DNA from: Mucilaginibacter rubeus
Lineage (GTDB): Bacteria; Bacteroidota; Bacteroidia; Sphingobacteriales; Sphingobacteriaceae
DNA: 64,000 nucleotides
Direction: 5' to 3'
NCBI RefSeq assembly: GCF_003286415.2
Contig: NZ_CP043450.1
Span: 186,001 to 250,000 of the forward strand
In this document: in pieces, positions 38,850 to 56,355 of the stretch
Layout of the letters: each line of letters opens with the position of its first letter
Numbering within the stretch: the first letter of the stretch is position 1
Notes under the pieces: model-generated
The model's input: only the letters and a program-made list of their open reading frames with translations
What the model was told of the DNA's origin: nothing
Database searches by the model: none
Program-made: the position numbers and the translations under genes

Positions 38850-38888
38850 TGAATTTTCGGCCGATTGGTGGCACCTTAGTTTTAAATT

Positions 38889-42049: not shown

Positions 42050-42170
42050 GTAATGCTATTTGTTTTTGTTTAAATATTTGATAATTAATAAGTTATATAA
42101 ATGGCACATGTTTTATTTAGCATTAACAGTAGTGTACTGCCTTTTGATAAACTGATAACCTGTTTGGGAT

Positions 42171-44954
42171 ATGAACTTAGATGACCACGTTTGGAACCTG
42201 GCTTCAAAGAAGTTGGCCCGCGAAGCTTCGGATGGGGAGCTGCGCGAGCTGAACGCTTTATTGGCCGAAAATCCCGAACTGCATAGTCAGCTAAAATTAA
42301 TGTCTAAATGGTGGGATGAAGGAGAAGAAAAGCCTGAAAATAATAGCTCAGCTTTATTTGGCAGGATCCAGGCAAAGATCAAAGATATTGAAGGGAGTAT
42401 CTCGCCTGAACCTGTAGTTGGAGAGCGATCCCCGGCTAAAGGGACGCAGCGCAAACCAGCTAATCATAACAGCAATAGGGAATTAAAACCATATAGTCCG
42501 TTTTTTAACCGTACAGCCATGATCAAAAATTACCTGAAAGTAGCTCTCAGACAGTTGCGTAAACAAAAGATGTATACCGCTATTAAAATTGGTGGCTTTG
42601 CGTTTAGCATTGCAGCCTGTCTTTTAATAGCCCTGTACATTCGTGACGAGCTGAGCTTTGACAGAAGCTATCCTAACGCCAGTAATATTTATCGTTTAAT
42701 TGCCGATTACCACGATGGCGGCTCGCGTGAAAAAGGTGTCGACTGGCCTTCGGTTATGGGGAAGGTGATCAAGCAGGATTTTCCGGAAGTGGAGAAATCG
42801 GGTCGGCTGATGCCTAATTCGCTTTTTTGGGGTGCCGGCAGCAATGAACTAAAACGTGCAGATCAGGCTGATAACACCCATGAAGAAGGTTTTGCCTATG
42901 CCGATCAGGGTTTGATTGACATTTTGAATGTGCCCATGGTTTATGGCGATCCTAAACACGCGCTGACCGAACCTTTGAGTATCGTTATCTCAAAAAGCAA
43001 GGCCGATAAATACTTTCCCGGCCAAAACCCGGTAGGGAAGGTGATCTACCTGAATAATAACAAAACCAAGCCTTTTAAAATATCGGCAGTAATGCAGGAT
43101 ATGCCAAATAACTCGCACCTGCACGAGTTTAAGTTTTTGCTAACTCTTGCCGGAGTTGAGTTCTGGAATGGTGAGCAGGCCACCTGGGACGCCAATAACT
43201 ACCATATTTATATGGCGCTGAAGCCCGGTACCAATATAGCGCAGTTTGAAAAAAAGGTGAGCGCCAATATTCTTAAAAACTACTATGTGCCCAACATGAT
43301 TAAAAACGGCGATAAGCGGGCAAGCCGGGTAATGGATATTTTTAGCATGAAAGTGCAGAATATCCAGGATATCAACCTGCTCTCTTATGATATTCATGAT
43401 GGTATGTCGCATGGGGATATGAGGTTTATCTGGTTGTTTGGCGCGGTAGCTGGCTTTATTTTGGTCATTGCCTGTATCAACTTTATTAACCTTTCAACCG
43501 CTAAGTCGGCCAACAGGGCCAAAGAGGTTGGTTTGCGCAAAGTTGTTGGTTCGCAACGGGCTGGTTTGATCAGGCAGTTCCTTACCGAGTCATTACTCTA
43601 TAGTTTTTTCTCTTTTGTTTTAGGCTTGATACTGGCCTGGGTTATGTTGCCTTACTTTAATATTCTGGCATCCAAATCGCTGCATATGCCATGGGCACAA
43701 TGGTGGCTGGTTCCAGTGATATTAGTTTCGGCTTTCCTGATTGGTATTGTGGCCGGCATTTATCCCGCGTTTTACCTGTCGGGCTTTAAACCAGCTGATG
43801 TGCTGAAAGGCAAACTAAGCACCGGTAGCAAAAGCTCGGGCCTCAGGAACGTGCTGGTAGTTTTTCAGTTTACAACATCTATTATACTCATCATCAGCAC
43901 GGTGGTTATTTATAACCAGATGCAGTTTATCCTTAATAAAAAGGTAGGCTTTGAAAAAGACCAGGTAGTGATGATCCAGGGCACCAACACACTTGATAAC
44001 CAGGTGAAGGCATTCAAGAATGAGCTTGTAAAGCTGCCTACGGTTAAAAGTGCTTCCATCAGTGATTTCTTGCCGGTATCAGGTACCAAGCGTAATGGCA
44101 ACCAGTTTTTTAATGATGGCAAGCAAAAAACGGAAGCCGGTGTTGGCGGGCAGTTTTGGGATGTTGATCATGATTACCTGAAAACTTTAGGTATTAAACT
44201 GGTGGCAGGCCGTGACTTTAACCCTGATATGAAAACCGATTCGCAGGCGGTAATCATTAATCAGACTATGGCCAGTAAACTGGGGCTCAAAAATCCGATA
44301 GGTAAAAAGATTGTAAACTATGGTGCCGGCAGAACTATTATTGGGGTGGTTCAGGACTTTAATTTTGAATCCATGCGTGATGGCATAGAGCCCATGGTGC
44401 TGCACCTGGAAGCCAGCGAATCAATAGTATCTGTAAAAATAAAAGCAGGAGATGTAAAGAACGCCCTCGCGCAGATCACAACTACCTGGAAGCAGTTTGC
44501 TCCTAACCAACCAATCCGCTATACTTTTATGGATGAGCGATTTGCCAGTATGTATGCCGATGTTCAGCGCATGGGGCGAATTTTTACAAGCTTCGCGGTA
44601 TTGGCAATCATCATAGCTTGTCTTGGCCTGTTTGCCTTAGCAGCCTTTATGGCCGAGCAGCGTAGCAAGGAAATAGGGATCCGTAAAGTGTTGGGCGCTA
44701 CCATAGGGAACATCACCACCATGTTATCCATGAATTTTGTGAAACTGGTATTTATTGCCATTGTAATAGCAACACCGATAGCCTATTACGCCATGACACA
44801 ATGGCTACAGGATTTTACCTACCGGGTAGAGCTGAAGTGGTGGATGTTTGCTCTTGCAGGCGTAGCTGCTATCATGATAGCGCTGGCCACGGTAAGTTAC
44901 CAAAGCATAAAAGCCGCGTTAACGAACCCGGTAAAGAGTTTGAAAACGGAGTAG
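42171..44954 (+). CDS. MacB/FtsX-type permease with N-terminal anti-sigma-like domain
   Basis: This 927-residue protein has two parts. Residues about 1-115 form a charged cytosolic region. Its start (VWNLASKKLAREASDGELRELNALLAENPEL) resembles the N-terminal segment of FecR-type anti-sigma factors. From MIKNYLKVALRQ on, it is a typical FtsX-like permease with a first helix, a MacB_PCD periplasmic domain (about 150-390), three helices, a second periplasmic domain and four terminal helices carrying RSKEIGIRKVLGA. The three following paralogues lack the first part. No ATPase is encoded nearby. Export of a macrolide-, lipoprotein- or peptide-like substrate is possible but not shown. Confidence 0.85.
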   Translation: MNLDDHVWNLASKKLAREASDGELRELNALLAENPELHSQLKLMSKWWDEGEEKPENNSSALFGRIQAKIKDIEGSISPEPVVGERSPAKGTQRKPANHNSNRELKPYSPFFNRTAMIKNYLKVALRQLRKQKMYTAIKIGGFAFSIAACLLIALYIRDELSFDRSYPNASNIYRLIADYHDGGSREKGVDWPSVMGKVIKQDFPEVEKSGRLMPNSLFWGAGSNELKRADQADNTHEEGFAYADQGLIDILNVPMVYGDPKHALTEPLSIVISKSKADKYFPGQNPVGKVIYLNNNKTKPFKISAVMQDMPNNSHLHEFKFLLTLAGVEFWNGEQATWDANNYHIYMALKPGTNIAQFEKKVSANILKNYYVPNMIKNGDKRASRVMDIFSMKVQNIQDINLLSYDIHDGMSHGDMRFIWLFGAVAGFILVIACINFINLSTAKSANRAKEVGLRKVVGSQRAGLIRQFLTESLLYSFFSFVLGLILAWVMLPYFNILASKSLHMPWAQWWLVPVILVSAFLIGIVAGIYPAFYLSGFKPADVLKGKLSTGSKSSGLRNVLVVFQFTTSIILIISTVVIYNQMQFILNKKVGFEKDQVVMIQGTNTLDNQVKAFKNELVKLPTVKSASISDFLPVSGTKRNGNQFFNDGKQKTEAGVGGQFWDVDHDYLKTLGIKLVAGRDFNPDMKTDSQAVIINQTMASKLGLKNPIGKKIVNYGAGRTIIGVVQDFNFESMRDGIEPMVLHLEASESIVSVKIKAGDVKNALAQITTTWKQFAPNQPIRYTFMDERFASMYADVQRMGRIFTSFAVLAIIIACLGLFALAAFMAEQRSKEIGIRKVLGATIGNITTMLSMNFVKLVFIAIVIATPIAYYAMTQWLQDFTYRVELKWWMFALAGVAAIMIALATVSYQSIKAALTNPVKSLKTE

Positions 44955-45125: not shown

Positions 45126-47555
45126 ATGATAAAGAGTTATTTAAAAACAGCATGGCGGTTTTTGTTGAAAAACAAAACCTTTAGTTTAATTAATATAGTT
45201 GGGTTGGCTACGGGTACGCTTTGCTGCCTTTACATTTTGCTGTATGTGCAGGACCAGTATAGTTACGATAAGCAACATAAGGATGTTAAAGATATTTATC
45301 GCGTCACCACCGCGCTTGAACTAACCGGTGATAAACACAATAGCGCCACCAGTTCGCCGCCAATTACACCTGCCATGAAGAACGAGTTTGGTGAGGTATT
45401 GCAATATACCCGCCTGGTAACTACCGAGGGTTTTGGCGCTAAACAACACCTGCTGCGTTACAAGGAAAAATCATTTTATCAGCAAAACGCGGCATATGTT
45501 GATTCTACGTTTTTTGATGTGTTCAACTTCCATTTTGTAGCCGGCAACGCTAACAAAGTGTTATCTGAGCCTTATACCATCGTATTGCAGAAACCGGTTG
45601 CCGATAAACTTTTCGGCAGCGAAAACGCGGTAGGGAAAATGATCTCTATCGATAATTCATTCGGAAAGCATGATTTTAAGGTTACCGGGGTGGTAGATGA
45701 GAGTGCCGGCCAGTCGCACATCAAAGTAAGTATGTTCATGGCTATGAACAGCGGTGGCTTAGGCCAGTATGTAAGGCAAAATACTGCCTGGGCGGGCAAT
45801 AACTTTTTGTACGCTTATGTGAAACTTCGCCCGGATGCCAATGCTGCCGCGCTTGAAAAAAAACTCCCCGACTTTTTAAATAAATACGGTGCCGACCAAT
45901 TGAAAGCTATCGGTATGAAAAAGGTATTGCACTTGCAGCCGGTAACCACCATTCATACCACGCCCGGGCATGAGCATGAGCTTACCAAAACGCTTGATCC
46001 GGCATTTTTGTATATCATGATATTGGTAGCTGTGTTGATACAGGTAGTGGCCTGTATTAACTTCATGAACCTTTCAACCGCGCGCGCATCAAAACGGGCT
46101 AAGGAAGTTGGCGTGCGTAAGGTAATAGGTGCCGGCCAGGGCGATTTGATGAAACAATTTTTGGGCGAATCATTTATGCTCACACTAATTGGCGTGGCTA
46201 TAGCCCTGCCATTGCTGATAGTACTGCTTCCGTTCTTAAATCAGGTAACCCATACCGATATTCACTTATCATTTTTTAGCAATTACAAGCTTTGGATAAT
46301 GCTGGTATGTATGGTAGTGGTTACCGGCTTTGTGGCGGGCAGCTACCCGGCTTTTTACCTGTCTGCATTTAAAGCCATTAAAGTTATCAAGGGGAATTTT
46401 ACCAATCATATTTCGGCAGCGGGCATTCGTAAATCATTGGTGGTATTCCAGTTTGTATTGTCGATAGTACTCATAACCGGCATTATTGTGATATATAGCC
46501 AACTTAACTTCGTGAAGAATAAAGATCTTGGCTTCGACCAGAACCAGAAGCTGATCTTTAATTTTTATACCGAAACCACCCAGGGCAAAATGAAAAATTT
46601 TGCAAACGATTTAAGGCAGCTGGCTGGGGTAAAAACCGTAAGCAATGCCGATAATTACCTGAGTCAGTTTGTACCTCACGACCATGGAGTTTATACCGCA
46701 GGGGGCAACATGGCTACTGCTACCGACGCACAAAATATTGTTACCGATGAATTTTTTGCCAAAGCAAACGGCATTAAAATAATTGCCGGCAGGGATTTTC
46801 GTATTGGCGATACTACCCGCGTACTTATCAATGAAACTTTATGCAAACGATTAGGAATAAAACCCGACGCTGCTCCGGGCACCCGACTTTATACCCAATA
46901 TGCACCGGATCCGGTAACCTTTGTTGAGGTGGCCGGTGTAATGAAAGATTTTAATTACAACTCGCTGCATATGGAAGTAAAGCCATTCATGCTGGTTTAC
47001 CGTAACGATCCGCGGCAGTTTAATGTAATGGTGGTATCAACCAGTAGCAAAAACTATAAATCGATGCTTGACAAAATGGAAGCCCTGTGGCGAAAAGACA
47101 TTGCCGATGCGCCATTTGAATATTCGTTTTTAGATGCCGAAGTACAAAAGCAATATGAAAGTGAAGTTACCCTGTCGCAAATCATCAACTCCTTTACGCT
47201 GATGGCTATCGTGATTTCCTGCCTTGGTTTGTTTGGCCTGGCAGCATTCAGCGCCGAGCAGCGCAGCAAAGAGATTGGCGTACGTAAAGTGCTTGGCGCC
47301 AGCGTAACCGGCATTGTACAGCTGTTATCAAAAGATTTTGTAAAGCTGGTACTGATAGCACTTGTAATAGCCACGCCAATAGCCTGGTGGGGCATGAGTA
47401 AATGGCTTCAGGCCTTTGAGTACCGTGTGAATATTAGCTGGTGGATGTTTGCCCTTGCAGGCGTGTTGGCGTTGGTAATAGCCCTTATCACGGTAAGCTC
47501 ACAAGCCATCAAAGCGGCAAGAATGAACCCGGTGAAGAGTTTAAAAGCGGAGTAG
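45126..47555 (+). CDS. MacB/FtsX-type ABC transporter permease
   Basis: This 809-residue inner-membrane permease carries an N-terminal helix (ATGTLCCLYILLYV), a MacB_PCD-like periplasmic domain, the GVRKVIGAGQGDLMKQFLGES block near 330, a second periplasmic domain and a C-terminal four-helix FtsX block with RSKEIGVRKVLGAS. It is the most divergent of the three shorter paralogues. The partner ATPase and membrane-fusion protein are not in the window. Confidence 0.88.
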   Translation: MIKSYLKTAWRFLLKNKTFSLINIVGLATGTLCCLYILLYVQDQYSYDKQHKDVKDIYRVTTALELTGDKHNSATSSPPITPAMKNEFGEVLQYTRLVTTEGFGAKQHLLRYKEKSFYQQNAAYVDSTFFDVFNFHFVAGNANKVLSEPYTIVLQKPVADKLFGSENAVGKMISIDNSFGKHDFKVTGVVDESAGQSHIKVSMFMAMNSGGLGQYVRQNTAWAGNNFLYAYVKLRPDANAAALEKKLPDFLNKYGADQLKAIGMKKVLHLQPVTTIHTTPGHEHELTKTLDPAFLYIMILVAVLIQVVACINFMNLSTARASKRAKEVGVRKVIGAGQGDLMKQFLGESFMLTLIGVAIALPLLIVLLPFLNQVTHTDIHLSFFSNYKLWIMLVCMVVVTGFVAGSYPAFYLSAFKAIKVIKGNFTNHISAAGIRKSLVVFQFVLSIVLITGIIVIYSQLNFVKNKDLGFDQNQKLIFNFYTETTQGKMKNFANDLRQLAGVKTVSNADNYLSQFVPHDHGVYTAGGNMATATDAQNIVTDEFFAKANGIKIIAGRDFRIGDTTRVLINETLCKRLGIKPDAAPGTRLYTQYAPDPVTFVEVAGVMKDFNYNSLHMEVKPFMLVYRNDPRQFNVMVVSTSSKNYKSMLDKMEALWRKDIADAPFEYSFLDAEVQKQYESEVTLSQIINSFTLMAIVISCLGLFGLAAFSAEQRSKEIGVRKVLGASVTGIVQLLSKDFVKLVLIALVIATPIAWWGMSKWLQAFEYRVNISWWMFALAGVLALVIALITVSSQAIKAARMNPVKSLKAE

Positions 47556-47644: not shown

Positions 47645-50005
47645 ATGTTAAAGAATTACATTAAAATCGCGTTCCGCAATATTGTTAAAAACAAGGTGCA
47701 TGCCTTTATTAACATCGCGGGTTTATCGGTAGGGATGGCGGTGGCTATGCTTATCGGTCTCTGGGTTTGGGATGAGCTGTCGTTTGATAAATACCACAGC
47801 ACCTATAACAGCGTGGGGCAGATCATGGTAACGCAAACAGCCAATGGCGAAACAGCTACTTTCCGGTCGACAGTGGTGCCGTTAAGCGCGGAGTTACGAA
47901 CCAAATATGCCAGCGATTTTAAACATGTTGCACTTTTTTGGGGTGGGGCACATATTCTTTCGGTTGGCGATAAAAAAATATCACAAATAGGTGGTTGGGC
48001 CGAAAGTGACTTGCCGGCCATGCTGGCACTGAAGATGGTAAAAGGCAGTTATTCGGGATTCAAAGACCCTACATCTATAGTCATATCTCAATCAATTGCC
48101 AAATCGCTGTTTGGTGATGCGGACCCGATCAACAAAACCATTAAGGCTGATAACAAAACCAACCTGAAGGTGATCGGCGTATATGAAGACCTGCCGCGCA
48201 ATACCTCGTTTTATGAAACCAAGTTCCTGATGCCTTTTTTTAACAAAGACAGCTGGTGGGGCACACAAACCGCTGCCTGGGATAACCATGGTTGCTCATT
48301 ATATGTGCAGATGGCCGATCATGTGGATTTTGACAAAGTATCGGCGAAGATCAGGAATATCACCAAGCCTCACTTTAAGATGAATGATGAAAGCATCCAG
48401 GTGCATCCGATGAGTAAATGGCACCTGTACAGTGATTTTAAAAACAGTAAACCTGTTGGCGGCTTGATTGAGATGGTTTGGTTATTTGGTATCATTGGTG
48501 TATTTGTATTGTTGCTGGCCTGTATCAATTTCATGAACCTGAGTACCGCCCGCAGCGAGAAACGCGCTAAAGAAGTAGGAATCAGAAAGTCTATTGGTTC
48601 ATTACGTTCACAACTCATTAACCAGTTTTTAAGTGAGTCGATAATATTTGCCTGTCTGGCGCTGGTGGTTACACTTGGTATAGTGTTGATAGCACTGCCG
48701 TCATTTAATCATATTGCCGATAAGCAGATAGCTATACCTTTTGGTAATGCCTGGTTCTGGATGATGGTTTTAGGATTTACGTTGTTCACCGGTGCTATCG
48801 CCGGCAGTTACCCGGCGTTTTACCTGTCGTCATTTGAGCCGGTGAAGGTTTTAAAAGGGACTTTCAAGGTAGGCCGTTTTGCATCGCTGCCCCGTAAGGT
48901 TTTGGTTGTTGTGCAGTTTACAGTTTCCATCGCGCTTATTATTGGAACCATCATTGTATTCCGGCAAATTCAGTATGCCAAAAACAGGCCCGTAGGTTAT
49001 TCACGCGCGGGGTTGCTTTCCATCGAAATGAATACCCCGGAAATTTACGGGCATTATGAAACTATGCGTAATGACCTGATCCAAACAGGGGCGGTTGAAG
49101 ACATGGCCGAATCAAACAGTACCACAACCCAAATCTGGTCAAACAATGGAGGGTTCGACTGGGAAGGTAAGCCCGCTGGTTTTGATCCAACTTTTGGTAC
49201 CATTGCCACAACTTATGATTTTGGACATACTATTGGTTGGAAAATTATTGAAGGCCGCGACTTTTCGAGGAGTTTCCCAACCGATACCGGGGCCTTTATC
49301 ATGAATGAATCGGCTGTAAAAATGAGTGGGATTAAAAACCCGGTTGGCAAAGTGATCAGATGGAACAAGCAGGACCATATTGTTACCGGTGTGGTGAAGG
49401 ACATGGTAATGGAATCGCCATATGCTAAACCAGTGGCCACTGTATTTATGATGATTCCGGGTTGGGTTAACTTTATAACCCTGAGGGTTAAACCAACCAT
49501 GCCAATGCAGGAAGCATTAAAGAAGATAGAGCCTGTGTTTAAAAAATATAATCCCGGCAGCCCCTTCAATTTTAAATTTAATGACGATGAATATGCGCAC
49601 AAGTTTTCGGACGAGCAGCGCATCGGTAACCTGGCTACCATTTTCGCGGTGCTGGCTATCTTTATATCATGCCTTGGTTTGTTTGGCCTGGCTTCATTTG
49701 TAGCCGAGCAACGTATTAAGGAAATCGGCGTGCGTAAGGTACTTGGTGCATCGGTTGCTAACCTATGGCGATTACTTTCTACCGAGTTTGTAGTATTGGT
49801 TACCATATCGCTGTTAATTGCCATACCAACCACTTATTATTATATGAACAATTGGCTGCACAGGTACGAATACCGGTCGCCCATAACCTGGTGGATCTTC
49901 GGGGCGTCAGGAGTGGGCGCTATCGTAATCACACTGCTAACCGTAAGTTATCACGCCATAAAAGCGGCGCTGGCTAATCCGGTAAAGAATTTGAGATCAG
50001 AATAA
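47645..50005 (+). CDS. MacB/FtsX-type ABC transporter permease
   Basis: This 786-residue permease is closely related to the next one. It starts MLKNYIKIAFRNIVKNKVHAF and has the first helix LSVGMAVAMLIGLWVW, two periplasmic domains and the repeated FtsX signature (KEVGIRKSIGS near 320 and KEIGVRKVLGAS near 700). The arrangement suggests duplication of an ancestral gene; the two share long nearly identical blocks around the first helix and the middle helices. Confidence 0.88.
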   Translation: MLKNYIKIAFRNIVKNKVHAFINIAGLSVGMAVAMLIGLWVWDELSFDKYHSTYNSVGQIMVTQTANGETATFRSTVVPLSAELRTKYASDFKHVALFWGGAHILSVGDKKISQIGGWAESDLPAMLALKMVKGSYSGFKDPTSIVISQSIAKSLFGDADPINKTIKADNKTNLKVIGVYEDLPRNTSFYETKFLMPFFNKDSWWGTQTAAWDNHGCSLYVQMADHVDFDKVSAKIRNITKPHFKMNDESIQVHPMSKWHLYSDFKNSKPVGGLIEMVWLFGIIGVFVLLLACINFMNLSTARSEKRAKEVGIRKSIGSLRSQLINQFLSESIIFACLALVVTLGIVLIALPSFNHIADKQIAIPFGNAWFWMMVLGFTLFTGAIAGSYPAFYLSSFEPVKVLKGTFKVGRFASLPRKVLVVVQFTVSIALIIGTIIVFRQIQYAKNRPVGYSRAGLLSIEMNTPEIYGHYETMRNDLIQTGAVEDMAESNSTTTQIWSNNGGFDWEGKPAGFDPTFGTIATTYDFGHTIGWKIIEGRDFSRSFPTDTGAFIMNESAVKMSGIKNPVGKVIRWNKQDHIVTGVVKDMVMESPYAKPVATVFMMIPGWVNFITLRVKPTMPMQEALKKIEPVFKKYNPGSPFNFKFNDDEYAHKFSDEQRIGNLATIFAVLAIFISCLGLFGLASFVAEQRIKEIGVRKVLGASVANLWRLLSTEFVVLVTISLLIAIPTTYYYMNNWLHRYEYRSPITWWIFGASGVGAIVITLLTVSYHAIKAALANPVKNLRSE

Positions 50006-50127: not shown

Positions 50128-52521
50128 ATGTTCAAAAACTATTTAACCGTTGCGTGGCGAAATCTTGTTAAGAACAAGGCGCATACGCTTATTAATATTA
50201 CCGGCCTTTCGGTAGGGATGGCAGTGGCTATGCTTATTGGCCTGTGGGTTTGGGATGAGTTATCGTACAATAAAAACTTTGATAATTATGACCGGATAGT
50301 TCAGGTTTGGCAAAACCAGACTTTTAACGGTGTAACAGGGTCTCAAACGGCAATGCCTATACCCCTGGGTTATAAGTTAAGAGATGATTATAAACACGAT
50401 TTTAAATACGTGGTGCTTTCTTCCTGGAATTATGGACATATTATGGCCTATGGTGAGAAAAAGCTCACCAAGGACGGAAGTTACATGCAAGCCGAAGCGC
50501 CCAATATGCTTACGTTAAAAATGCTGAGGGGCACGCGTGATGGATTGAAAGATCCATCATCTGTTTTACTTTCAGCTACATTGGCTAAGGCTTTGTTTGG
50601 TGATACCGATCCGATGCTTAAAACCATCAAAATTGATAATGTATGGAATGTTAAAGTAACCGGCGTTTATGAGGATATGCCGCACAATTCAGAATTTCGC
50701 GAACTGGGTTTTATAGCTCCGTGGGATTTATATATGACCACCGCGCCGTGGTTAAAACGAGCTGAAACACGTTGGGGCAATAACTCATGGCAAATATTCG
50801 CACAGCTGAAACCCGGTGTTGATGCCGCTAAAGTTTCCGCCGAAATCAAAGACCTTAAATTGCATGCCATCAAAGCCCAGGGTGACGATGTGGGGGCCAG
50901 CTTTAAACCAGTAGTATTCCTGCACCCAATGAGTAAATGGCATCTGCACTCTGAGTTTAAGGATGGTTTTAATACCGGAGGAGATATCAAATTTGTGTGG
51001 ATGTTTGGCATCATAGGTGTATTTGTATTGATGTTGGCCTGTATTAACTTCATGAACCTGAGCACTGCCCGCAGCGAAAAGCGGGCAAAAGAAGTAGGCA
51101 TCCGTAAAACGGTTGGTTCGTTAAGGAGCCAGCTCATTAGCCAGTTTTTTATCGAGTCGGTAATATTGGCGCTGTTTGCTTTTCTTATTTCAATTTTGCT
51201 GGCTCAGCTTACGCTATCATGGTTCAATACAGTTGCAGACAAAACCATGCACATCCTTTGGGGGAGTGCTGTTTTCTGGCTACTTGGATTAGGCTTCAGT
51301 ATCACTACCGGCTTAATAGCGGGCAGTTACCCGGCGTTCTATCTGTCGTCATTCCAGCCGGTTAAAGTACTTAAGGGTACATTTAAGGCAGGGCGTTATG
51401 CCGCGGTGCCACGTAAAATACTGGTGGTACTGCAGTTTGCCGTATCGGTTACGCTCATCATTGGTACAATCATTGTTTTCAGGCAGGTGCAGTACACCAA
51501 GAACAGGCCTATCGGTTATGAGCGTACCGGGTTGGTACAGATAGATATGCGCACCGATGAAATTCATAAACATTTTGAAGCCGTAAGGAACGATTTGCTT
51601 AAATCGGGGGCTATCATTGAAATTGCCGAGTCGGGTAGTCCGCTTACTGCTGTGTATTCAAACAATAGCGGACTAAACTGGCGAGGCAAACCAGCCGGCT
51701 TACAGGACGACTTCGCGACGATAACGCTTAGTCCGGAGTTTGGCAAGGTTGCTCAGTGGAAGTTGGTTGAAGGCCGCGATTTTGAACGCAACAGACTGGG
51801 CGATTCATCAAGCATGATTGTAAATGAAACTGCCGCCCGTTTTATGAATTTTAAGCATGCGGTAGGTGAAACAATAGACTGGGGCAAAAAATTTAAGATC
51901 ATAGGCGTAGTAAAGGATATGGTGATGTCATCGCCGTACGAGCCTGTCAAGTCATCGATATTTTTGCTGGATAATGACCCGGGCGGGCTTGTAGATATCC
52001 GGTTAAATCCCAAAATGAGCGCGCACGACGCTATTGCCAAAATAGAGCCGGTTTTTAAACAGTATGCCCCTGGCAGTCCGTTTGAATATAAATTTACCGA
52101 CGAGGAATATGCCCGTAAATTCACTAATGAAGAACGCATAGGCAAACTGGCCGGTTTTTTCACACTGCTGGCCATTTTTATCAGTTGTATGGGTTTATTC
52201 GGTATGGCATCGTTCATGGCCGAACAGCGCACCAAAGAAATTGGGGTACGCAAGGTACTGGGCGCGTCTGTATTCAGCCTGTGGCAACTAATGTCGAAGG
52301 AGTTTGTGGTACTGGTGAGTATCTCTTTATTGTTCGCTATACCAACAGCTTACTACTTTATGGCGGGCTGGCTGAAGGATTATAAGTATCAGGCCGAGCT
52401 ATCCTGGTGGATATTCGGGGTAACCGGGATTGGTGCTATCGCGATCACATTACTCACCGTAAGTTATCAAAGTATAAAAGCTGCATCCATGAATCCGGTA
52501 AAAAGTTTGAAAACGGAGTAA
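50128..52521 (+). CDS. MacB/FtsX-type ABC transporter permease
   Basis: This 797-residue permease is the fourth and last of the tandem set. The N-terminus MFKNYLTVAWRNLVKNKAHTL and LSVGMAVAMLIGLWVWDELSY almost match the previous protein. The FtsX signature occurs at RAKEVGIRKTVGS and TKEIGVRKVLGAS. A terminator lies about 150 bp after its stop, marking the end of the cluster. Confidence 0.88.
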   Translation: MFKNYLTVAWRNLVKNKAHTLINITGLSVGMAVAMLIGLWVWDELSYNKNFDNYDRIVQVWQNQTFNGVTGSQTAMPIPLGYKLRDDYKHDFKYVVLSSWNYGHIMAYGEKKLTKDGSYMQAEAPNMLTLKMLRGTRDGLKDPSSVLLSATLAKALFGDTDPMLKTIKIDNVWNVKVTGVYEDMPHNSEFRELGFIAPWDLYMTTAPWLKRAETRWGNNSWQIFAQLKPGVDAAKVSAEIKDLKLHAIKAQGDDVGASFKPVVFLHPMSKWHLHSEFKDGFNTGGDIKFVWMFGIIGVFVLMLACINFMNLSTARSEKRAKEVGIRKTVGSLRSQLISQFFIESVILALFAFLISILLAQLTLSWFNTVADKTMHILWGSAVFWLLGLGFSITTGLIAGSYPAFYLSSFQPVKVLKGTFKAGRYAAVPRKILVVLQFAVSVTLIIGTIIVFRQVQYTKNRPIGYERTGLVQIDMRTDEIHKHFEAVRNDLLKSGAIIEIAESGSPLTAVYSNNSGLNWRGKPAGLQDDFATITLSPEFGKVAQWKLVEGRDFERNRLGDSSSMIVNETAARFMNFKHAVGETIDWGKKFKIIGVVKDMVMSSPYEPVKSSIFLLDNDPGGLVDIRLNPKMSAHDAIAKIEPVFKQYAPGSPFEYKFTDEEYARKFTNEERIGKLAGFFTLLAIFISCMGLFGMASFMAEQRTKEIGVRKVLGASVFSLWQLMSKEFVVLVSISLLFAIPTAYYFMAGWLKDYKYQAELSWWIFGVTGIGAIAITLLTVSYQSIKAASMNPVKSLKTE

Positions 52522-52770: not shown

Positions 52771-53184
52771 TTAGCAGTATTGTTCAAACGCGTCGATCAG
52801 GTTATCGGCAATCATTTGTGCCGGACGACCTTCAATCTGGTAACGCTCGATGATATGTACCAGTTTGCCATCTTTAAACAGCGCCATAGCTGGTGATGAC
52901 GGTGGGTAAGGCAACATGTAGTTACGTGCAGTATCAACAGCTTCTTTTTCCATACCGGCAAACACTGTTACCAGTTTATCGGGATGTTTGCCATTAGCGG
53001 CAGCAATTTTAGCAGCAGGGCGTGCATTAGCTGCAGCACAACCACATACCGAATTAACCATTACAAATACTGTGCCTTCGCTTTCAATAGCGTTTTTTAC
53101 AGCATCTGCATCTTTCAATTCCTCAAATCCAACCTTGGTAAGGTCTTCCCGCATCGGGGCTACTAAATATTCAGGATACATCAT
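52771..53184 (-). CDS. Bacilliredoxin BrxA/BrxB (YphP/YqiW family)
   Basis: This protein of about 137 residues has the family N-terminus MYPEYLVAPMREDLTKVGFEEL and the CGC redox motif SVCGCAAANARPA near residue 52. PPSSPAMALFKDGKLVHIIER follows near 100. In firmicutes the family removes bacillithiol from proteins; Bacteroidota members also occur, but the thiol used here is not shown by the sequence. The frame reaches 53268; the family start is MMYPEY at 53184 or MYPEY at 53181. Confidence 0.92.
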   Translation of the reverse strand: MMYPEYLVAPMREDLTKVGFEELKDADAVKNAIESEGTVFVMVNSVCGCAAANARPAAKIAAANGKHPDKLVTVFAGMEKEAVDTARNYMLPYPPSSPAMALFKDGKLVHIIERYQIEGRPAQMIADNLIDAFEQYC

Positions 53185-53381
53185 TTCTTTTTGCTTTACA
53201 ATAAAATCAGTATTACAAAAATAAGAAATGATACTTGGTTTACGTTTATAAAAACTTAATAATAACAATTGGTTGACGATTAGCGTACAAGGCTATTCTA
53301 TTGATAACCTGTTTACATACATTTAATATTGTTTTATTATCGGTAATTTATAACTTGCATTCCCTAATTTATTTAAACTTG

Positions 53382-54251
53382 ATGAAGCGTAAAACATCTG
53401 ATATTAGTACCGTTGTTATCATCAACAAAAACCAGCAACCAACTAAATCCTTACAAATAAAAACCAAACATCTTGACAGGTTAAAACACTATGCATGGAG
53501 TATTGCAGCAGTTGTAGCAGTACTTGGCGGCCTGGTGTTTTATCTGCATCATAAAAGTGCCGAACAGGAAGCTCAAAACCTACAGTTACAGGCACAAATT
53601 GCTAAGCTTAAGGGTGCTATTCCGGTAGCTCAGGGCCCTGTAGTAAATACCAAAGTTACTGCGCAGTCATATATTCAATCTATCGAAGTAAAGCTTAAAA
53701 CAATAAACGAATATTTGAAGAGAAGAGGCCTTAAAGGCTTCGCCATTAAAGGAACCGGGGGCAGCGGTAATAATGAGGCGGCTAACCTTCCAGATACCGA
53801 GGCGTACAGCCTGTATGACGATTATCTTAAACATTTAACCAGCACCATTGCATTTACCCCAATGGGTTACCCGAGGATCAGTTCTTTCACCTCGTTTTTT
53901 GGTTACCGGAGCGATCCTTTTAATTCGGAACATGCCGAGTTTCATCCGGGTATCGATTTTCAGGGCCATCGTGGTGACGAAGTAAAATGTACTGCCAGCG
54001 GCAAAGTTGTTTTTGCGGGATGGGCCGGCGGTTACGGTAATTGCATCAGAATAAAACATATCAATGATTTGGAAACGCTTTACGGTCACCTTTCAAAAAT
54101 TGAAGTAAAGGTTGGTCAACAAGTTACCGTTGGCGACAATATTGGCAAAGTAGGTTCAACCGGCCATTCAACTGGTACACACCTGCACTATGAAGTACGT
54201 AAAAACGGAAAACCAGTTAATCCTGTAAACTTTTTAACCCTTAATAAATAG
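53382..54251 (+). CDS. M23 family (LytM) peptidase-domain protein
   Basis: This 289-residue inner-membrane protein has a cytosolic N-terminal tail, one helix (about 39-56), a coiled-coil-like stretch (about 58-115) and a LytM domain. The metal ligands are His188 and Asp192 (FHPGIDF) and HLH (267-269), with His236 supporting. It should act on peptidoglycan in the periplasm. The bactofilin gene follows after a repeat, suggesting that the two act together in cell-shape control, as in other bacteria. The start at MKRKTSD matches the first residue after a likely leader; the upstream 27 codons look spurious. Confidence 0.88.
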   Translation: MKRKTSDISTVVIINKNQQPTKSLQIKTKHLDRLKHYAWSIAAVVAVLGGLVFYLHHKSAEQEAQNLQLQAQIAKLKGAIPVAQGPVVNTKVTAQSYIQSIEVKLKTINEYLKRRGLKGFAIKGTGGSGNNEAANLPDTEAYSLYDDYLKHLTSTIAFTPMGYPRISSFTSFFGYRSDPFNSEHAEFHPGIDFQGHRGDEVKCTASGKVVFAGWAGGYGNCIRIKHINDLETLYGHLSKIEVKVGQQVTVGDNIGKVGSTGHSTGTHLHYEVRKNGKPVNPVNFLTLNK

Positions 54252-54259
54252 GTTTTTTT

Positions 54260-54382
54260 AGTCTGAAGTTCTGAGTCTTAAGTCGTGAGCCCTAAGTCGG
54301 CTGCGGATTATTTACTACCTTAAGCTTAGAATTTCAGATTTGGAACTAATGACTTAGGACTACCTACTTAGAACTTAAGACT
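54260..54382. repeat. Imperfect inverted repeat of AAGTCT-type words
   Basis: The left part is built from AGTCTGAAGTTCTGAGTCTTAAG and the right part ends in CTTAGAACTTAAGACT, giving complementary ends. It lies between the M23 and bactofilin genes and separates two genes that otherwise look like an operon. Confidence 0.65.
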
Positions 54383-54391
54383 AAAAACAAC

Positions 54392-54775
54392 ATGGCTATT
54401 TTTTCTAAAAAAGAGAAGGTTGCGCTCGACCTGCAGGCAATCTCAACCCTCATTAGTGAAGGCAGTGTATTGGAAGGTAATTTAAAAGCCCCGGCTTTTG
54501 CGCGCATTGACGGCGTAGTTAATGGCGATGTAACCGTTGATGAAGGCCTGATCCTGGGCGAAAAAGGCGAGGTTAAGGGAAATATAAGTACCAAAGAGAT
54601 ATTTGTTTATGGTACGGTAAGAGGCGATATCAATACTTCATCTCTCGAAATAAAAGCTACCGGCCGTATCACCGGCGACATCAAAACACAGAACCTGGCC
54701 GTAGAAAATGGCGGCGTTTACAATGGCAACCTTACCATGCAACAGGCAGAGGTGCAAAAGCAGCTACAGGCGTAG
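54392..54775 (+). CDS. Bactofilin
   Basis: This 127-residue polymer-forming cytoskeletal protein has the bactofilin beta-helix core, with regular strands such as EGNLKAPAFARIDGVVNGDV, EKGEVKGNIST and TGRITGDIKTQNLAVENGGVYNGNL. Short disordered ends flank it. It polymerises without nucleotide in known members and works with M23 peptidases in shape control. It follows the M23 gene. Confidence 0.93.
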   Translation: MAIFSKKEKVALDLQAISTLISEGSVLEGNLKAPAFARIDGVVNGDVTVDEGLILGEKGEVKGNISTKEIFVYGTVRGDINTSSLEIKATGRITGDIKTQNLAVENGGVYNGNLTMQQAEVQKQLQA

Positions 54776-54798
54776 GGTTATGAGATAATGAAGAGAGG

Positions 54799-54945
54799 AG
54801 GCACCTACGGAGCCAAATTGCCGTTTATATTAATACCACAAACACGATACTCCTACGGAGTGTTAGCATGGCTTTCTAAAAACTCCGTGGGAGTACCATG
54901 TTTATAGTTCAAAGTACTCAATCGGATTTTTGCTCCGTAGGTGCA
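54799..54945. repeat. Interspersed inverted repeat with CACCTACGGAGC ends
   Basis: The outer arms (GGCACCTACGGAGC and GCTCCGTAGGTGC) and an inner ACTCCTACGGAGT / ACTCCGTGGGAGT pair form a long imperfect hairpin between bactofilin and ahcY. No gene is seen in the gap. Confidence 0.75.
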
Positions 54946-55007
54946 ACCCCCAAATCGATAATACTTTAGGGGGAAACCAAACATTTCATTTTCACAAGGA
55001 TATAAGT

Positions 55008-55015
55008 TAACTTTG
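55008..55015 (+). promoter_or_regulatory. -7 promoter element of ahcY
   Basis: TAACTTTG matches TAnnTTTG and predicts a leader of about 20 nt before the ahcY ATG. No clear -33 box is visible. Confidence 0.6.
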
Positions 55016-55038
55016 CACTCTCAAAAATAAAAATCGAT

Positions 55039-56355
55039 ATGTCATCAGTAGAAACTGCATTCGTTAAATACAAAGTAAAAGATCTGTCGCTGGCAGAGTG
55101 GGGTCGCAAAGAAATTGAACTGGCTGAGGCTGAGATGCCTGGCTTAATGGCTTTGCGTAAAGAGTACGGTCCGAGCCAGCCGCTTAAAGGCGCAAGGATT
55201 GCCGGTTGTTTACACATGACCATCCAAACCGCTGTTTTAATTGAAACCCTGATTGCACTTGGCGCCGAAGTTACCTGGTCGTCATGTAATATATTTTCAA
55301 CGCAGGATCACGCTGCTGCTGCTATTGCTGCTGCCGGTATTTCTGTGTATGCCTGGAAAGGTATGAATGCTGAAGAGTTTGACTGGTGCATTGAACAAAC
55401 TTTATTTTTTGGCGAAGAACGCCAGCCGCTTAATATGATCCTTGATGACGGTGGCGATTTAACCAACATGGTATTGGATAAATACCCTGAGCTGGTTGCT
55501 GCTATCAAAGGTTTATCAGAAGAAACTACTACCGGTGTACACCGTTTATATGAGCGCATGAAAGCAGGTACCCTGCCAATGCCGGCAATTAACGTTAACG
55601 ACTCGGTTACCAAATCAAAATTTGATAACAAATACGGTTGCCGCGAATCATTGGTTGACGCTATCCGTCGTGCAACCGACGTAATGATGGCCGGTAAAGT
55701 GGCCGTTGTTTGTGGTTATGGCGACGTAGGTAAAGGTTCGGCAGATTCATTACGTAACTCTGGCGTGCGTGTTATTGTTACCGAAATTGACCCTATCTGT
55801 GCTTTACAAGCCGCAATGGAAGGTTTTGAAGTTAAAAAACTAAGCACTGCTATTACCGAAGCTGATATCGTGGTTACCGCTACTGGTAACAAAAACATCG
55901 TTCGTGAGCAACACTTCCGTGCTTTGAAAGATAAAGCTATCGTTTGTAACATCGGTCACTTTGATAATGAAATTGACATGGCCTGGTTAAATGGTGCTTA
56001 TGGCAATTCTAAAGTTGAAATTAAACCACAGGTTGATAAATATACCATTGAAGGTAAAGACGTTATCGTATTAGCCGAAGGTCGTTTGGTTAACTTAGGT
56101 TGCGCTACCGGTCACCCAAGCTTTGTAATGAGTAATTCGTTTACCAACCAAACTTTAGCCCAGTTAGAGCTTTGGACAAACGGTGCCGCTTATGAAAACA
56201 AAGTTTACACCCTGCCAAAACATCTTGATGAGAAAGTAGCCCGCTTGCACCTTGCTAAAATTGGTGTTGAGCTGGAAGTACTTGACCAGGATCAGGCTGA
56301 TTACATCGGTGTAACTGTTGAAGGTCCGTTTAAACCTGAGTACTACCGTTACTAA
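55039..56355 (+). CDS. ahcY: S-adenosylhomocysteine hydrolase
   Basis: This 438-residue cytosolic enzyme cleaves SAH to homocysteine and adenosine in the activated methyl cycle. The NAD-binding motif is [15 protein letters not shown] near 222-236. The signature [15 protein letters not shown] lies near 78 and the ending PFKPEYYRY is universal in the family. Length is normal. Its SAM-cycle role makes the orphan SAM-I riboswitch notable, although the two are about 20 kb apart. A strong hairpin terminator follows. Confidence 0.97.

Follow-up and report, generated by a model that had tools for sequence, protein, structure and literature searches.

A FecR-like anti-sigma domain ahead of MacB/FtsX-type permeases in Mucilaginibacter and a second bacterial family

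Why should only one of four adjacent permeases carry an extra N-terminal segment, and could that segment tie the permease to gene control? The question is raised by the window, a stretch of 64,000 nucleotides from Mucilaginibacter rubeus, which contains a tandem array of permease genes (Table 1). An earlier note on this DNA had claimed that the first of the four has about 115 additional residues resembling the cytoplasmic start of FecR-type anti-sigma factors, and that the other three start at the equivalent position. In its view, the joined protein could couple export or envelope stress to gene control. It had proposed a profile search, structure prediction and a search for an ECF sigma partner as checks, and named an unrelated structure or translation from the downstream Met as outcomes that would speak against it. 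Herein, the prefix was compared with FecR proteins and followed across related genomes. Labels beginning with G denote genomes and those beginning with L denote loci; the genome of M. rubeus, searched as a single contig of 7.63 Mb, is G000.

Table 1. Coordinates of the features discussed, in the window or, where a label is given, in the locus named
Feature	Coordinates	Strand	Remark or basis
Promoter-like element TGGCACATGTTTTATT	42102..42117	+	69 bases ahead of start codon
ORF with prefix and permease	42171..44954	+	927 aa, starts MNLDDHVWNLASKKLAREASDGELRELNALLAENPEL
Domain assigned to FecR-type class I anti-sigma domains (ASD), residues 1-75	42171..42395	+	profile, AF2, structural neighbours, dN/dS, conserved residues
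Variable linker, residues 76-116, mostly predicted disordered	42396..42518	+	dN/dS, pLDDT
FtsX/MacB-type permease part, residues 117-927	42519..44954	+	Pfam, full-length model, PDB relatives MacB
Second tandem permease, without prefix	45126..47555	+	ORF, Pfam
Third tandem permease, without prefix	47645..50005	+	ORF, Pfam
Fourth tandem permease, without prefix	50128..52521	+	ORF, Pfam
Stand-alone ASD genes	L247:7014-7241, L248:6631-6858, L249:4507-4725, L250:4623-4841, L251:4122-4340	opposite	
ECF genes downstream of fusion	L227:2856-3443, L228:7305-7865	same as fusion	

The prefix and its kinship with FecR

The reading frames of the array agreed with the earlier description. The permease-equivalent start of the first protein is M117 (MIKNYLKVALRQ), an ATG at 42519, leaving a prefix of 116 residues (42171-42518), and the other three ORFs begin at the position equivalent to M117 with MIKSYLKTAWRF, MLKNYIKIAFRN, and MFKNYLTVAWRN. 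Behind M117, Pfam found two stretches each of MacB_PCD (108.7 bits against a cut-off of 27) and FtsX (91.6 bits against 25.5), which places this part among the MacB/FtsX permeases, and its relatives in the PDB are MacB. Eight membrane helices are predicted, as counted by eye from the helix list of the full-length model, the first spanning residues 133-160. The protein scored 337.5 bits with the ADOP family model TIGR03434, below the curated cut-off of 622.3. An 88% identical homologue occurs in another genome of the genus (G391).

Since the ORFs of the other three permeases begin at this position and an ATG is present there, translation could be thought to start at M117, leaving the prefix as an untranslated leader or an annotation artefact. 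The substitution pattern contradicts this. In 16 non-independent pairs of relatives, dN/dS estimated by the Nei-Gojobori method was 0.044-0.232 over residues 2-75 in 15 pairs, with the 16th saturated, and 0.022-0.080 over the permease part, again in 15 pairs with the remaining one saturated. For the linker, the values were 0.218-1.212 in 14 pairs, two being saturated. Because residues 2-75 are under purifying selection, the prefix is not a chance open frame and translation does not begin at M117. Moreover, L052 and L053 encode the domain independently, in ORFs of 83 or 82 aa that end 29 and 62 bases ahead of the permease. As judged from these codon comparisons, the ASD is translated and selected, and a start at the downstream Met is most improbable. 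The fused relatives in L050 and L054 have no ATG ahead of the domain, and GTG would be the simplest start.

The profile search against FecR N-termini gave a clear result. When a profile of 22 prefixes and stand-alone domains was aligned by hhalign with a profile of 20 FecR N-termini from the M. rubeus genome, the score was 97.4% (E 1.1e-11, 69 columns), compared with at most 0.9% in 40 column shuffles and 1.3% with the FecR profile reversed; removal of the three closest FecRs still left 95.9%. The prefix profile, built without any FecR, matched 19 of 395 genomes of the phylum, and 23 of the 31 matches listed lay in frames as long as FecR genes (245-410 aa); the best of these had an E value of 6e-17. 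The FecR of Pollutibacter soli, with an ECF gene upstream, is 49% identical to the prefix over residues 4-48, the best such match in a named record. In a search of its whole own genome, the prefix matched, besides itself, three places that all lie outside the window. Two are the N-termini of true FecR proteins, in both cases downstream of an ECF gene (E 1e-4 and 1.4), and the third is a chance-like match that holds stops (E 0.92).

Conservation by position told the same story. Over 79 positions, conservation in the fused ASDs tracked that in 41 FecR ASDs (Spearman 0.79, Pearson 0.87), a comparison that leans to similarity because the FecR set was gathered with a profile holding two FecR rows. 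An ECF gene lies within 300 bp of 36 of these 41 FecR genes. Residues W8, L10, K13, K14, L15, A19, E23, L27, P35, and W48, as well as an aromatic residue at position 63, are conserved in both groups, and the KKL signature is lost in one subgroup (L132/L233 and relatives). In FecR itself, an excerpt of PMC9249621 reports L13, W19, W39, and W50 as needed for induction. Taken on sequence grounds, homology of residues 1-75 to the FecR ASD is nearly certain.

General domain searches returned less. Nothing above noise was found for the prefix in Pfam, NCBIfam, or PADLOC; the Pfam result carries no information, since Pfam leaves three true FecRs uncovered at their N-termini too. A sequence search of the PDB with the prefix profile gave chance-like matches only. 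The 927-aa protein is no complete FecR: FecR (PF04773) and FecR_C (PF16344), present in three reference FecRs, are absent from it. Two other assignments were rejected. A zinc-binding anti-sigma (ZAS) domain would require an Hx3Cx2C motif, which is impossible in a 116-residue prefix without cysteine. For the permease prefix domain 2 of NCBI (NF038404), the prefix had no NCBIfam match at E 10, and the model had no match in the genome.

The predicted structure is consistent with the profile result. The AlphaFold2 model of the prefix has helices at residues 3-15, 21-33, 35-51, and 59-76 (mean pLDDT 74.9). Foldseek with this model gave a poor best E value of 1.9, and the anti-sigma entries MucA, RsiW, and RslA made up five of the first six rows and 8 of 17 overall. 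On structural realignment, the nearest were RsiW (Z 7.4, 69 residues), MucA (7.2 and 7.0), and RslA (5.7), all below the Z of 8 that counts as proof by the tool's own yardstick, and the next row was a DNA ligase at 4.4. The full-length model falls below pLDDT 50 at residues 49-63 and 73-115, and helix 4 is weak. According to an excerpt of PMC7406223, class I ASDs touch sigma region 4 with helix 1 and region 2 with helix 4, and a passage of PMC9249621 states that the FecR N-terminus interacts with FecI region 4. An unrelated fold did not emerge; the FecR resemblance proposed in the earlier note has strong backing from profile, conservation, and selection, and the predicted four-helix structure also speaks for it.

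Spread and recurrence of the fusion

Fused status was judged first by frame length (at least 850 aa) and then by the ASD and window-permease profiles in one frame. Within the genus Mucilaginibacter, 86 of 149 genomes had some match and at least 35 had a fused-length frame; all 35 carry ASD and FtsX profiles in one frame. In a second family, which we take to be Chitinophagaceae as the family that holds Pollutibacter soli, 154 of 294 genomes matched and at least 13 had fused-length frames, all verified by profile. A short fusion of the ASD with part of a permease (L217:1498-2493) is additional to these. Across the class, 16 of 395 genomes matched, and fused-length frames were found only in G000, G072, and G645, all of these two families. 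Within this sampling, the fusion seems to be restricted to them.

The loci examined contained distinct ASDs of three kinds: 53 on permeases, 41 in FecR proteins, and 22 standing alone. Six further frames had odd lengths. One is a broken fusion with ASD and FtsX, its permease split over two frames (L305, 255-2955), and four are FecR genes, two of them broken (L307-L310). The sixth, of 179 aa (L306:2528-3067), adds a single hydrophobic stretch and a short tail to the ASD, and matches neither FecR nor FtsX; from its sequence it might be either a third architecture or a cut-down FecR.

Permeases of the MacB/FtsX type are themselves abundant, with at least 11-49 per genome in nine genomes, including G901 and G779, and many lie side by side. 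Among the matches listed for G901, the one most similar to the window permease (59% identity) is an 813-aa frame with no room for a prefix, and the fused permease of the same genome is 36% identical to the window permease.

A tree was built from 53 permease parts, fused and unfused, with the prefix excluded. The fused label needs nine changes on it, against a mean of 17.5 for shuffled labels, in a quick tree with SH-aLRT support only, with a sample of the unfused permeases and a count blind to gain versus loss. All nine changes are forced by starred branches, and the fused L231, L238, L232, and L245/L246 each stand beside unfused permeases with support of 97-100. A single origin of the fusion was rejected on account of these nine changes, subject to those limits of tree, sample, and count. 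On this tree, the ASD recurs on permeases that do not form one clade.

One chromosomal site suggests how such a pattern could arise. It shares the neighbours found at 52771-56355 of the window, namely a disulphide isomerase, an M23 peptidase, a bactofilin, and a last gene that is presumably an adenosylhomocysteinase. At this site, the ASD is fused to window-type permeases or, in L234, to a permease of another clade; in L256 it is separate and ahead of a permease, and in L253 it is ahead of a putative esterase. Because the partners behind it differ at a site with shared neighbours, the ASD looks resident and the permease variable. Turnover of permeases behind a resident ASD may explain part of the recurrence, and is cheaper than many independent fusions. 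Some orthologous loci lack the ASD or carry it as a separate piece, so the permease can do without the fusion. A possible remnant of the prefix was read, by eye only, in L049.

Sigma partners, stand-alone domains, and the upstream element

The search for an ECF partner was mostly negative. It used nine ORFs as queries with a limit of E 1e-6; at least two of these were neighbours of ECFs rather than ECFs, and two further ORFs that are not ECFs were left out. No ECF gene was found within 300 bp of any of the 53 fused genes. Among the 48 fused loci with longer stretches, 41 were without an ECF gene and seven had an ECF-type gene, five of these seven genes being either oppositely oriented or accompanied by a FecR of their own. 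The ECF gene near the fusion has such a FecR in L221, L223, and L226; that in L225 runs on the other strand and is truncated where the locus ends, and in L242 a 409-aa sigma factor with DUF6596 is on the opposite strand. The remaining two loci are L227 and L228, from the only two genomes examined of one genus, in which a same-strand ECF gene lies 1676 and 656 bp downstream of the fusion with no FecR in the stretch. These two ECFs are 50% identical and both pass the Pfam cut-off for sigma region 4, one also that for region 2; general synteny between two relatives could explain their placement. When the two were compared with ORFs from 30 of the 69 sigma loci in the M. rubeus genome, only general ECF similarity appeared (best E 3e-18). 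In that genome, 33 of the 69 sigma-region-2 matches, which include non-ECF sigma factors, have no FecR match within 3 kb, and 3 of 39 FecR matches have no sigma match within 3 kb.

The near absence of closely linked ECF genes from fused loci favours an explanation in which the prefix is a FecR ASD by descent that has lost sigma binding and serves as a helical bundle in permease assembly, pairing of tandem permeases, or ATPase docking. The permeases kept at orthologous loci without an attached ASD fit this as well, and so does the loss of KKL in one subgroup. Against it stands the conservation by position, which follows that of mostly ECF-linked FecR ASDs. One may argue, as reasoning rather than a test, that exposed conserved positions would be expected to drift in an ASD freed from sigma binding. 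An assembly role also does not predict ASDs free of any permease, five of them beside ECF genes.

Such stand-alone ASD genes encode 70-140 aa. Some lie beside permeases, an FtsX gene following directly after 4 of the 22. In five genomes of the genus (L247-L251), an ECF gene and a FecR gene flank the ASD gene, which itself runs on the opposite strand and encodes 72-75 aa; Pfam confirmed all five FecRs and, where checked, one of the five ECFs. The ASD genes overlap the end of the ECF gene by 20 bases or stand 24-25 bases away, and their dN/dS was 0.137-0.204 where estimable. Judging by gene order, this arrangement is the clearest genetic tie of the ASD class to an ECF factor, and the encoded protein is possibly a second, soluble regulator of one sigma factor. 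With these genes in view, we regard a role in assembly, pairing, or docking without sigma binding as rather unlikely.

A promoter-like element lies upstream of the fused ORF, preceded by an AT-rich GATAATTA-type stretch. Its strict pattern, TGGCAYRTNTTTTATT, occurs once in the whole genome, at this place. A relaxed form (TGGCAY, 3-5 bases, TTT[TG]A, located 44-78 bases ahead of the gene) precedes 23 of 53 fused genes and 7 of 22 stand-alone ASD genes, with about 0.009 expected per 300 bases. It precedes none of the 41 FecR genes, a weak control since only 4 of the 41 are from the genus; the M. rubeus genome, with 39 FecR matches and the strict form present only once, is the better one. The element precedes ASDs on different permease clades, and is missing from the fused genes of the second family and from many of those in the genus. 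A second relaxed match, at 38869 of the window, has no same-strand gene close downstream.

A sigma-54 promoter was considered for the element and not adopted: compared with the consensus in an excerpt of PMC12316311, which also mentions FtsX-like permeases under sigma-54 control, the -24-like TGGCAC is present and the -12 GC is missing.

The sharing of an upstream element between fused and stand-alone ASD genes suggests transcriptional control, as would be expected if the prefix were a sigma decoy. It would then bind ECF sigma factors and sense nothing, the permease being an anchor and the amount of prefix following the permease operon. Soluble stand-alone forms and the long linker, predicted to be disordered, are in line with a decoy. 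Nevertheless, among the examined ASD frames of at least 150 aa, the domain is always attached to a permease or FecR with the sole exception of the 179-aa frame in L306, which counts against a mere anchor, and we consider a decoy quite improbable.

A proposed role and its relation to known systems

We propose that a flexible linker, some 40 residues long, would tether a FecR-type class I ASD to an orphan MacB/FtsX-type permease at its cytoplasmic N-terminus, and that the ASD would there bind an ECF sigma factor whose gene lies at another place in the genome. The bound sigma factor would be held at the membrane or, as with FecR, delivered. The permease and its periplasmic domains would take the place of the single membrane helix and periplasmic sensor of FecR, and substrate load, conformation, or proteolysis of the permease would set the amount of free sigma. 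This membrane-tethered ASD for an in-trans ECF factor, with a permease in place of the FecR sensor, is in our view probably what the locus encodes. Its parts differ in strength: sigma binding by the prefix is likely, control of sigma by the permease or coupling to transport is plausible, and the cytoplasmic side of the prefix and the identity of the sigma factor are matters that we infer.

The FecR profile match, the fold, conservation, selection, recurrence, and the gene orders of L247-L251 and L227/L228 favour such a tethered ASD. Counting against it are the lack of a close ECF gene, the weak Foldseek E value, Z scores below 8, the low confidence of helix 4, the loss of KKL, and a fusion that is not essential. 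More tentatively, the promoter element and the ASD may form a unit that has settled on different MacB/FtsX permeases, the state of each orphan permease controlling an in-trans ECF factor; this wider reading is possible and at present doubtful.

Most MacB/FtsX permeases of this kind have, to our knowledge, no assigned role. The ASD on some of them offers a direct handle, leading from the sigma factor to its regulon and then to what the permease senses or exports, and the combination hints at an exporter that might inform gene control directly. If the proposed tethering holds, it would be an input route to ECF factors without a TonB receptor and without the FecR sensor domain, and would extend ECF signalling in the phylum past ECF-FecR-receptor loci. 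It might also explain why some ECF genes of the M. rubeus genome stand without a FecR nearby.

Among known systems, the closest are the FecR/PupR regulators of ECF sigma factors, with FecR assigned to group AS243 in an excerpt of PMC7406223. They share with the window protein a homologous N-terminal class I ASD, which in them precedes a membrane helix and a periplasmic part. The window protein differs in having a multi-helix permease instead of one helix, no FecR or FecR_C domain, and no adjacent ECF gene. It resembles MacB/FtsX-type permeases in its duplicated MacB_PCD and FtsX stretches and departs from them in the additional ASD; unlike the ADOP family, it stays below the cut-off of TIGR03434. 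The permease prefix domain 2 of NCBIfam likewise is a short domain ahead of a permease, but its model does not match. In searches of open-licence PubMed Central papers, we found no description of an FtsX or ABC permease that carries an anti-sigma or FecR domain. A parallel is IutY, a sigma factor fused to its anti-sigma part according to excerpts of PMC9249621 and PMC8999054. Both are unusual fusions within an ECF regulatory module, whereas IutY joins a sigma factor to a FecR-like part and the window protein joins an ASD to a permease. The window protein is a known regulatory domain on a new membrane partner, and a recurrent one.
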